From Methanobacteriota archaeon (lineage in GTDB: Archaea > Undinarchaeota > Undinarchaeia > Undinarchaeales > Undinarchaeaceae), in assembly GCA_002687935.1 (NCBI GenBank), contig NZBN01000008.1, positions 1 through 48,036 on the forward strand: DNA of 48,036 bases. Reading direction: 5' to 3'. Each line of letters starts with the position of its first letter. Position 1 is the stretch's first letter. The translations under genes and the position numbers were made by a program. The notes under the pieces are model-generated. The model was not told the origin of the DNA, did not search any database, and was given only the letters and a program-made list of their open reading frames with translations. This document shows positions 17,793 through 20,633 of the stretch, one piece after another.

Positions 17793-17845
17793 GACTTGAG
17801 GAGATTTCCGATAGGTTAAAATACATTTTTCTTCATATAATAACT

Positions 17846-18913
17846 ATGCAAAAACTTGATGAGCAGATTCTTAATATAATAAGAAATGCCGGACCCTCGA
17901 CTCCGATGGAGATAGCTAGCAGGATTAACGGAACGGACTCCTTGATAGTTGGTGCAGTTCTCGCAGATGCGGCAAGTCAGAAGAAGATAAAAAAGTCAAA
18001 ACGAAGGATTGGTGGTGGTCTTCGATACTATTATTTTCCGGACCAGTTTGGAACTCTGCAGAAAAAAATAAGCAGTTCACTTACAACGCATGAGAAGGAA
18101 GTTCTTCAGATACTTATGAAGGAAAATCTTCTTGGAGAATTTGAAATATCAAACCAGATAAAGTTAATTCTTCCAAATCTTGAGGATTTGATTCGGGCTT
18201 TCAACATAGAACATGGGGGAACAACATACAGATGTTGGAGTGCCCCGACAATGGATGAAAAACTTGCATTTGAAACTGCTATGGAGAAAATTACAGGAAG
18301 AGTGGGCAGCGTAGAACCTGAAGTAGCAAAGGTGGAAACTGCAGAAAAGAAAATCCAAGAAGTTAAAAAAGAAGAGCCGGCTGCCAAGATAGAAAAACCA
18401 AAGGAAGAAGAAAAGCCTGAAGCAAAAATCCAGGAAAAGTCCAAACCAGCGTCCAAGGTCGCAAAGAAATCTAAAACTTCTGACTCAAGACAGATAAAGC
18501 TTTCAAAGGAAGACACGACGCAGAAGGAAACTGAAGAGGAAATGCGGGACCGCATACGGAAGGAGATATTAAGAGAAATTGAGGGAGATTTTGGAGATAT
18601 TGTTCTTAGATGGCTGGAGACCCAAGATATTGACGTTCGTTCAGAAAACTCAGTGCCGGATGAGAATACATATGAACTTGATGTGAAAGTTCCGACACCA
18701 CTTGGAAGGCAAACATACATGGTAAAAATACTTGATTTTCCAAAGAAGCCCGCAAGCCAGAATGATGTAGCAGCGATAGGAACAGAGGCAGTAACACGAA
18801 GAGTTCCAGCAATGGTCATAAGTTCAACAGGCTTTGCGAAGACAGCAATAAAATATGTTGATAAGGAGCTGAAGGATTTGGTCTTCCTTATTGACAAAAA
18901 TGACATAGAATGA
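17846..18913 (+). CDS. winged-helix protein with charged linker and C-terminal nuclease-fold-like domain
   Basis: A three-part protein of 355 residues. Residues 1-70 read as a winged helix (ILNIIRNAGPSTPMEIASRI, then a GGGLRYYYF wing); 70-150 look like a second small helical or winged domain; 155-245 are a Lys/Glu-rich linker. Residues 250-355 have an alternating strand/helix pattern with YELDVKVPTPLGRQTYMVKI and VPAMVISSTGFAKTA, resembling the restriction-endonuclease-like fold of Mrr/Holliday-resolvase families. I see no complete catalytic PD-(D/E)XK set, so nuclease activity is not claimed. A DNA-binding role is inferred. Confidence 0.7.
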   Translation: MQKLDEQILNIIRNAGPSTPMEIASRINGTDSLIVGAVLADAASQKKIKKSKRRIGGGLRYYYFPDQFGTLQKKISSSLTTHEKEVLQILMKENLLGEFEISNQIKLILPNLEDLIRAFNIEHGGTTYRCWSAPTMDEKLAFETAMEKITGRVGSVEPEVAKVETAEKKIQEVKKEEPAAKIEKPKEEEKPEAKIQEKSKPASKVAKKSKTSDSRQIKLSKEDTTQKETEEEMRDRIRKEILREIEGDFGDIVLRWLETQDIDVRSENSVPDENTYELDVKVPTPLGRQTYMVKILDFPKKPASQNDVAAIGTEAVTRRVPAMVISSTGFAKTAIKYVDKELKDLVFLIDKNDIE

Positions 18914-18916
18914 CAA

Positions 18917-18947
18917 GCTGAGATAAAGTTTATAAGCAAATCTCAGC
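18917..18947. promoter_or_regulatory. 8-bp inverted repeat bracketing the TATA box of the PhoU/TrkA-C gene
   Basis: GCTGAGAT (18917-18924) and ATCTCAGC (18940-18947) are perfect inverted copies, 15 bases apart. The spacer contains the TATA box GTTTATAAG (about 18928-18936). The layout suits a dimeric regulator blocking TBP access, or a hairpin ending the upstream transcript; sequence alone cannot decide. Confidence 0.55.
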
Positions 18948-18961
18948 AATAATAAATAGAA

Positions 18962-18974
18962 GGTGAACTTCACC
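18962..18974. promoter_or_regulatory. palindrome overlapping the ribosome binding site of the PhoU/TrkA-C gene
   Basis: GGTGAACTTCACC is a perfect 13-base palindrome just after the predicted transcription start and just before ATG 18979. It includes the GGTGA ribosome binding site. It could be an operator half or a small hairpin (GGTG/CACC) that hides the site. Confidence 0.45.
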
Positions 18975-18978
18975 CTTA

Positions 18979-19587
18979 ATGGCAGACGAAACCTACGAAG
19001 TAGATGAAATTGTGGATGAACTTCTGAATAAGAAGCGCGGCATAAAGGAAATTATAAAGGAGATGAAGAATGTCTCCGAACTTATGGTTGACCTTGCGTA
19101 TTCAGCAATACTTTTCAATAATGATGATTTGGCTGAGGAAGTCAAGGGACTAGAGGAGGAGATGAACAAACTCCGCCTTCAGATTGAGATAAGCGCAATG
19201 CTGGCGGCCCGAACATCAGAAGATGCCTCAAAACTGAGTGGAATAATTAGAGTTGCCGCTGCAGCGGAGAGTATATCCAATGCCGCCGAAAAAATAGCAG
19301 ATACAGTTCTCAGAGATATAGAGCTTCACCCTGTTCTAAAGGAGGCGCTTGAAGAAGCTGAAGAAACTGTTCAGCGAGTTGTAGTAAAAGCGAAATCTGA
19401 AATTGATGGAATGGCAATAAAAAATATCCGTGACAACAAAAAGTACGCGGTTGATATACTATGTATCAAGCGCGGGGGAAAATGGATTTTTGACCCGAAG
19501 TGGGAAAGTAAAGTTAAAGCTAAAGATATGGTAATAGTTACAGGCTTCAAGGAAAATGTTGAGCAGTTTAAGGACCTTGTGAAGTGA
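18979..19587 (+). CDS. PhoU-like / TrkA-C (RCK_C) domain protein
   Basis: Residues 1-125 form PhoU-like helices (MKNVSELMVDLAYSAILF, then AESISNAAEKIADTVL). Residues 130-202 look like a TrkA-C ligand-binding domain: MAIKNIRDNKKYAVDILCIKR and KAKDMVIVTGFKENVEQF. Such proteins in archaea are thought to gate or regulate cation (K+ or divalent) transport; no channel gene is adjacent. The 202-residue length fits the standalone family. The stop overlaps the methyltransferase start. Two inverted repeats at the promoter suggest regulation. Confidence 0.85.
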   Translation: MADETYEVDEIVDELLNKKRGIKEIIKEMKNVSELMVDLAYSAILFNNDDLAEEVKGLEEEMNKLRLQIEISAMLAARTSEDASKLSGIIRVAAAAESISNAAEKIADTVLRDIELHPVLKEALEEAEETVQRVVVKAKSEIDGMAIKNIRDNKKYAVDILCIKRGGKWIFDPKWESKVKAKDMVIVTGFKENVEQFKDLVK

Positions 19588-20126
19588 AATCCTTCTATAG
19601 AGATTTTATGTTTGAAGTTTCTGACGATGTTTATTCTCCCAGGGAGGACTCTTTTCTTATTGCAGATTCCCTTGAACTGAAAGGCAATGAAAAGGTGTTG
19701 GATATGGGGACTGGTAGCGGAATTCTTGCAGTTGTCGCAGCGTCTAAGGGTTGTGAAGTTACAGCAGCAGACATAAATCCAGGGGCTGTAAAATGCGCGA
19801 AAGAAAACGCTGAGAGAAACCAAGTTTCAATAGAAGTTCTTGAAAGTAATTTGTTTGAGAATATCTCCGGAAAATTTGACCTTATACTATTCAACTTGCC
19901 TTACATCAAAATGAATGAAAAGCCTAAGAAAGTAATAGATCTCAGTTATAATAGCCCAGGAACTATTGAGGGCTTTCTCAAAGAATACAAAGAACATTTG
20001 AAGCCAAGTGGGAGGGCGATTGTTGTAAGTTCCAGCCTCTCAGGCATCGAGCCGGAGAGTCTTGGGAAGATTATTGCACGGCAGAAGCTCCCTTTTGAAG
20101 AGATTTTTGTTGTTGAATTAGAATAA
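19584..20126 (+). CDS. HemK2/Mtq2-type glutamine N5-methyltransferase (NLPY variant)
   Basis: A class I SAM-dependent methyltransferase of the family that modifies the GGQ glutamine of release factor aRF1. The GTG start at 19584 overlaps the upstream stop as GTGA and gives the family's usual N-terminus, ending in VYSPREDSFLIADSL. SAM motif I is VLDMGTGSGILAV (38-50). The catalytic NPPY tetrapeptide is NLPY here (104-107), a Pro to Leu change. ATG 19608 is an alternative start but would shorten the N-terminus. Length 180 is typical for HemK2 (about 190-200). Confidence 0.85.
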   Translation: MKSFYRDFMFEVSDDVYSPREDSFLIADSLELKGNEKVLDMGTGSGILAVVAASKGCEVTAADINPGAVKCAKENAERNQVSIEVLESNLFENISGKFDLILFNLPYIKMNEKPKKVIDLSYNSPGTIEGFLKEYKEHLKPSGRAIVVSSSLSGIEPESLGKIIARQKLPFEEIFVVELE

Positions 20127-20633
20127 AGATATCAGCAAATAAACTGAAGCAAGCCCTAAACCCAGCAAGGATTTTATGACAATAAAATTAAGAGTAAACT
20201 CCAGCCAAGGAGCTGATTTGTTTTCGAACTTCTTTATTATGAAGAAGGCAGGAATTGAAGCGACAATTATTCTTGACGCAGAAAAGGATAGAATTGGTGC
20301 TGTGTGGGGATTTACCACTCTAGATAGGGCTGAGAAGAAAAGAATAGCCAAGGAAGCTCCTGCGAGGTAGCCAGTAAAGAAGCGCCGTGTATTATCACTT
20401 TCAGTTCCGAGGACAAGTTGAGCAAGACCGTCCAGAGCCATTGGAGTCATGAAAACTAGAGGTAGTAGAAGTCCTGAAATTGCATTAAAGGGGCCAAACC
20501 AGAGCAAAAGAAGAATGGTAGAAACGAATGCCCCGAGATAAACACCTGTGCACCTTGAGCAAACGACTAAATATTTGGAGAACTTGAAAGAGCGTTCAGG
20601 TCTCTGATGGCACATAAATTTTTTCAGTTTCAT
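20118..20633 (-). CDS. DUF2085 membrane protein
   Basis: A 171-residue membrane protein with about four to five hydrophobic helices. The DUF2085 signature is at the N-terminus: FMCHQRPERSF followed by VCSRCTGVYLG, three conserved cysteines and a histidine that may bind metal. DGLAQLV and the NTRRFFTGYLAG segment are also characteristic. The family's function is unknown. It overlaps the DRG stop codon as ATGA, and its 3' end overlaps the convergent HemK2-like gene by 9 bases. Confidence 0.85.
   Translation of the reverse strand: MKLKKFMCHQRPERSFKFSKYLVVCSRCTGVYLGAFVSTILLLLWFGPFNAISGLLLPLVFMTPMALDGLAQLVLGTESDNTRRFFTGYLAGASLAILFFSALSRVVNPHTAPILSFSASRIIVASIPAFFIIKKFENKSAPWLEFTLNFIVIKSLLGLGLASVYLLISLF

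Follow-up and report, generated by a model that had tools for sequence, protein, structure and literature searches.

The closest described counterparts of a palindrome at an archaeal core promoter are repressor sites lying over the BRE/TATA or over the transcription start, as reported in PMC4158304 and PMC10570040. In the Thermococcales, the TrmB/TrmBL1 operators (TACT-N3-AGTA; TGM TATCAC-N5-GTGATA) are inverted repeats at the BRE/TATA or start, e.g., the TrmB site TACT-N3-AGTA at the malE BRE/TATA (PMC4158304), and EnfR is associated with a 36-bp pseudo-palindrome over a TATA-like sequence of the codh cluster, centred at -21 from the translation start (PMC10570040). The locus considered here is situated in a 48,036-nucleotide stretch of DNA (hereafter the window), which is contig C8 of an Undinarchaeota genome (G000; 666,542 bases, 86.6% complete). 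In its BRE-like purines, its TATA box and an AGGTGA complementary to the 3' end of the 16S rRNA it is the same as an archaeal BRE/TATA core promoter with a Shine-Dalgarno (SD) leader, from which it differs in having its TATA box framed by an 8-bp inverted repeat (IR1). IR1 shares its position with the TrmB/TrmBL1 operators and the arrangement of a wide pseudo-palindrome over a TATA-like box with the EnfR operator. Its sequence, however, differs from both, and it is further distinguished from the TrmB/TrmBL1 operators by a 15-nt spacer and by having no second genomic site at 0-1 mismatch. Little has been mapped of how DPANN-type archaea control transcription, and we know of no mapped operator in the phylum Undinarchaeota; a real operator in DPANN-type archaea would, if true, be useful.

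The left arm of IR1, GCTGAGAT (18917-18924), starts 4 nt past the last stop-codon base (18913) of the upstream gene and forms 8/8 pairs with the right arm, ATCTCAGC (18940-18947). The 15-nt spacer between them, AAAGTTTATAAGCAA on the plus strand (18925-18939), holds BRE-like purines (AAAG) and the TATA box TTTATAAG (18929-18936), the putative BRE and TATA together reading AAAGTTTATAAG (18925-18936). As a whole, IR1 (GCTGAGAT-N15-ATCTCAGC) spans 31 bp around the BRE/TATA (18917-18947), and its half-site centres are 23 bp, or about two helical turns, apart. The second palindrome (IR2), GGTGAACTTCACC (18962-18974), has 6-bp arms and a 1-nt centre (C). The initial annotation had reported a perfect 8-bp inverted repeat bracketing the TATA box, which is indeed present letter for letter, and a 13-base palindrome covering the ribosome binding site, which agrees with the position of IR2 over an AGGTGA matching the 16S rRNA 3' end. 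It had also described the two as nested, but they lie side by side with 14 bp between them. Transcription is predicted to start at 18958-18960 on the plus strand, 26-27 bp from the TATA centre, which would give a leader of about 19-21 nt; this estimate combines the sequence with the archaeal promoter spacing, i.e., a start about 26 bp downstream of TATA, given in PMC4158304. The 16S rRNA 3' end of G000 reads GATCACCTCCT; its anti-SD is intact and its TCACCT pairs with AGGTGA (18961-18966, plus strand), and because of this complementarity AGGTGA is read as a 6-nt SD. The 16S pattern GGATCACCTCC had no match in G000, where the base preceding GATC is A. The SD is located 12 nt before the ATG, which is on the long side of the norm. 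Judged by its sequence, the 18917-18974 region is very probably a promoter.

The comparison set consisted of two genomes of the same genus (G001 and G002) and one of the same order (G003; 50% protein identity). The gene upstream of the promoter (17846-18913, plus strand), encoding 355 aa, is found in the same place in all three, so that its position is conserved across the order, with 50% identity in G003. A Pfam search with this protein gave no family at E 0.001; a match to the Sta1 regulator was sub-threshold (E 0.019, 15.1 bits vs a cut-off of 80). Of solved structures, two matched (E 0.072), both of a centrosomal protein and neither convincing, and the structure model, built with three close sequences, is of low confidence (pLDDT 43). 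These three results (Pfam family, solved relative, fold model) give the 355-aa protein no backing as a local repressor, which it may nonetheless be. By eye, its N-terminal part resembles winged-helix DNA-binding repeats.

The gene downstream of the promoter (18979-19587, plus strand; identified from the ORF list and Pfam) encodes a 202-aa protein with a PhoU domain (E 4.8e-10, 40.1 bits, cut-off 23.5) and, C-terminal to it, TrkA_C (E 1.4e-5, 25.3 bits, just below the curated cut-off of 27). Its stop is overlapped by the start of a gene for a HemK2/MTQ2-family protein methyltransferase (19584-20126, plus strand; TIGR00537, 141 bits, cut-off 87), which also adjoins the PhoU/TrkA_C gene in G001 and G003, the two relatives examined for this. 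In each of G000, G001, and G003 the two genes (18979-20126) share 1-4 bases, and no functional reason for their association is evident. A PhoU/TrkA_C protein is encoded in 4 of the 6 genomes of the phylum examined. Neighbours were listed at the loci of 17 relatives and 10 neighbour proteins from 9 of these loci were scanned; a divalent-cation transporter, MgtE, adjoins the homologue in 6 of these 9 loci. Homology with the MgtE-neighboured relatives extends over nearly the full length of the protein, whereas the neighbours in G000 are the 355-aa protein and the methyltransferase; the MgtE gene of this genome is not beside the locus but on contig C2. The two domains and the MgtE neighbourhood thus uphold the earlier suggestion of an ion-transport-associated product, and an ion-transport accessory protein is a plausible assignment. 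It had also been proposed that the protein could be its own repressor; Pfam, however, finds no DNA-binding domain in the 202-aa protein, which counts against simple self-repression, and this candidate was set aside on the Pfam evidence.

Within the window, inverted repeats of both types were observed at chance level. Perfect 8-bp repeats with a spacer up to 20 number 23 vs 22.5 expected (sd 6.2) and 6-bp repeats with a spacer up to 3 number 66 vs 60.3 expected (sd 11.0), with expectations from 30 Markov sequences; a frequency above chance is, therefore, not supported. Fifty-nine ORFs were picked mechanically (at least 60 aa, longest taken first, with predicted starts), and the 33 ORF rows with an upstream gap of at least 25 bp yielded 27 distinct intergenic segments. 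The 8-bp type occurs in one of these, the 6-bp type in three and both in one, against simulated means of 0.49, 1.78, and 0.18, respectively. The statement that no other promoter in the window shows such palindromes consequently stands in these segments if it refers to the 8-bp repeat or to the combination of the two, but not for the 6-bp palindrome class of IR2 (3/27, including IR2's own segment). By simulation, P is 0.0077 for the presence of both types in one 65-bp region taken alone and 0.17 for at least one such segment among the 27, indicating that the pair is uncommon yet unsurprising in a window-wide search. Most of the apparent oddity of this promoter is what is expected for an AT-rich intergenic region. 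A scan of 17800-20200 for bacterial-type promoters gave 5 vs 4.2 expected. The corresponding terminator scan gave 5 terminator-like sites vs 2.1 expected; one of these is IR2 on the minus strand, on which no gene end was seen at this site.

Neither palindrome is damaged in G001 (IR1 8/8 pairs, IR2 6/6), but each has one broken pair in G002 (IR1 7/8, IR2 5/6), so that the conservation in close relatives called for earlier is seen in one of the two. The IR1 arms of G001 are ACTGAGAT (left) and ATCTCAGT (right), which pair mutually, with an A-T outer pair vs G-C in G000. The outer left base is, however, the junction of a difference of roughly 125 bp, and this outer pair is therefore not a clean double substitution. 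The differing stretch holds a 44-aa ORF (L064 on contig C11 of G001, 1568-1702), which separates the 355-aa gene from the promoter; it has an ATGA overlap with the upstream stop, and its TGA stop is in the left arm of IR1. Among the three genomes it is specific to G001, having no match in G000 or G002, where ATG ACA AGC TGA takes its place and could be its remnant; its start may resemble an acetyltransferase N-terminus. In G002 the IR1 arms are GCTGAGAT and ATCTTAGC, with one DNA mismatch that is a G-U pair as RNA, and IR2 reads GGTAAAATTCACC, broken by a substitution that also weakens the SD. The IR1 spacer is AAAGCTTATAAACAA in both G001 and G002, with AAAGCTTATAAA as its BRE/TATA part.

The 62-bp leader is 55/62 (G001) and 56/62 (G002) identical to that of G000, compared with 536/609 and 543/609 for the PhoU/TrkA_C coding sequence and with mean identities over the aligned window of 0.856 (24,900 bases) and 0.859 (46,806 bases). 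For the left and right arms of IR1 and the left and right arms of IR2, identities are 7/8, 7/8, 6/6, and 6/6 in G001 and 8/8, 7/8, 5/6, and 6/6 in G002. The arms are thus not conserved above the surrounding leader in these two genomes and, since the leader itself is conserved no better than coding sequence, they are not singled out. Simulation at the leader's own divergence gave P 0.15 for IR1 being kept so well and 0.29 for IR2. Of the 8-bp repeats of the window that could be aligned, 2/9 are intact in G001, including IR1 (one base of which was set by hand), and 3/22 in G002, where 9/22, including IR1, keep at least 7 pairs; none of 9 is intact in both. Six of 29 6-bp repeats are intact in both genomes, IR2 not being among these. 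In G003, which has the same neighbours as G000 apart from a small divergent ORF, the sequence upstream of the PhoU/TrkA_C copy is AAAAAGGCTTATAAAGTG, with a CTTATAAA box and a TATA region reading AAAGGCTTATAAAGTG; it holds a counterpart of neither IR1 nor IR2. By sequence, the TATA region is common to G000 and G003 and the palindromes are not, the latter being seen only within the genus. A repeat of at least 8 bp is present within 90 bp upstream at 2 of 27 distant homologous loci (L005-L031, G003 included, some being two per genome with a common upstream region), in both cases with other sequences, and 2/27 loci have no upstream repeat of at least 5 bp; the starts of these homologues were guessed (farthest in-frame ATG, else GTG/TTG).

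A search of the G000 genome for further copies found no second place at 0-1 mismatch for either IR1 (CTGAGAT-N15-ATCTCAG) or IR2 (GGTGAANTTCACC). With 2 mismatches IR1 has four places, each inside an open frame at least 114 aa long, and two of them are copies of a single sequence that recurs at contig ends. When up to 3 mismatches were allowed, IR1 gave 37 places vs 18 for the reversed pattern in G000 and 44 vs 16 and 44 vs 19 in the other two genomes, but the reversed pattern contains CTA and TAG and is not composition-matched, for which reason this excess is given no weight. IR2 with up to 2 mismatches gave 31 places vs 25 for its reversed pattern in G000. None of the half-sites CTGAGAT, ATCTCAG, GGTGAA, and TTCACC occurs in the 210 bases before the MgtE ORF (predicted start). 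A motif common to the MgtE gene was, therefore, rejected, and the genome search for the same motifs that the initial annotation had proposed gave no second copy at 0-1 mismatch. In G001 and G002, a repeat CTGAGA...TCTCAG, which has 2 mismatches to IR1, covers the stop codon of another gene (L037 1501-1529 and L038 1501-1529); it matches no tRNA or Rfam family.

On balance, we are inclined to regard the region, with modest confidence, as an ordinary archaeal core promoter with an SD leader, in which the palindromes are sequence coincidences without a dedicated repressor. TBP and TFB would bind the TATA/BRE at 18925-18936, transcription would begin near 18958-18960 and yield a leader of roughly 20 nt, and the AGGTGA SD would guide the ribosome; the promoter would drive the PhoU/TrkA_C gene, probably together with the overlapping methyltransferase gene, and presumably no dedicated regulator acts at the palindromes. 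Of this, the sequences themselves, how they read in the three genomes, the pairing with the anti-SD and the chance-level frequency are direct observations. Against coincidence it can be argued that none of the 27 segments has an 8-bp repeat other than IR1, which is placed around the TATA like an archaeal repressor site, that the single-region P is low, that its hairpin is rarely matched by shuffled sequences, that G001 keeps 8 pairs despite the changed outer pair, and that near-matches to IR1 (up to 3 mismatches) outnumber those to the reversed pattern in G000. The placement of the arms astride the BRE/TATA, the spacing of the half-sites, the precedents cited above and the intact palindromes of G001 would all suit IR1, and perhaps IR2, as an operator at which a bound dimeric regulator blocks TBP/TFB or RNA polymerase in a genus-specific control. 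This we nevertheless consider unlikely: each palindrome has one genomic site at 0-1 mismatch, their frequency is at chance level, G002 has one broken pair in each and G003 has neither, and no known regulator adjoins. An operator would need a repeated motif or wider conservation, neither of which was found, although a single-target repressor is possible; the operator claim is, as it stands, unsupported. The ion- or phosphate-responsive repression of the initial annotation likewise finds no backing, given the missing second copy, the lack of a palindrome in G003 and a genus-level conservation no better than that of coding sequence.

A different use of IR1 would be as an RNA stem-loop, either closing the mRNA of the upstream gene at its 3' end or lying between cistrons in a read-through transcript; it would stabilise or bound that mRNA while the same DNA serves as the next promoter. 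We regard this as rather unlikely, yet it is the best remaining lead. IR1 begins just past the upstream stop codon and would form an 8-pair hairpin; for the 45 bases that follow the 355-aa gene's stop the folding energy is -11.5 kcal/mol, and the z of -5.3 (100 mononucleotide shuffles) is the lowest of the 3' ends of 58 mechanically chosen ORFs of 85 aa or longer in the window. With 5000 dinucleotide shuffles the z becomes -4.6, and the shuffle p values are 0.0004 for G000, 0.0016 for G001, and 0.022 for G002, which are uncorrected and not independent. The stem kept in three genomes is the one narrow lead left by the tests: if G-U is allowed, the substitution that breaks the DNA palindrome of G002 leaves 8 pairs in all three, with P 0.042 (uncorrected) for all 8 in both relatives, and the repeat that G001 and G002 carry over a further gene's stop codon has similar arms. 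However, no U-run follows IR1, the next bases being AATAATAAATAG, and in Methanococcus maripaludis the U-tract correlates with termination efficacy (PMC8716108). Hairpins are, moreover, not in general use at gene ends of the window (mean z -0.14), the left arm overlaps the stop of the extra ORF in G001, and G003 lacks the stem. The hairpin was chosen after the repeat had already been noticed, and since the p of G000 multiplied by 58 is about 0.02 for a feature picked post hoc, the stem is rated a lead. An Rfam search of the whole window gave 0 matches at the gathering score. That in this genus the 31-bp IR1 is doubly used, as a conserved 3' stem-loop of the upstream mRNA and as a DNA frame of the BRE/TATA where a dimeric regulator could block TBP/TFB, appears quite improbable. 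Highly improbable, finally, is a role of IR2 as a 5'-leader hairpin that hides the SD and tunes translation, perhaps by temperature. Its RNA, GGUGA-ACU-UCACC, has a 5-bp stem and a 3-nt loop and covers 5/6 SD bases; it folds at -5.1 kcal/mol in G000 and slightly more stably (-5.6) in G001, where the loop centre changes from C to A and the arms are unchanged. A 5-bp stem at the extreme 5' end is, however, weak; the shuffle p is 0.07 in G000 and 0.045 in G001, and in G002 the hairpin is lost (p 0.45) through the same substitution that weakens the SD itself.

At the other end of the window, the first 1.3-1.4 kb (1-1392) match the beginning of contig C10 (L045) in inverted orientation at 99.9-100% identity, and contigs C8 and C10 probably join at the window start. 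The break in the assembly may be explained by a 45-bp tandem repeat (1257-1369) within the tail of a 172-aa ORF.
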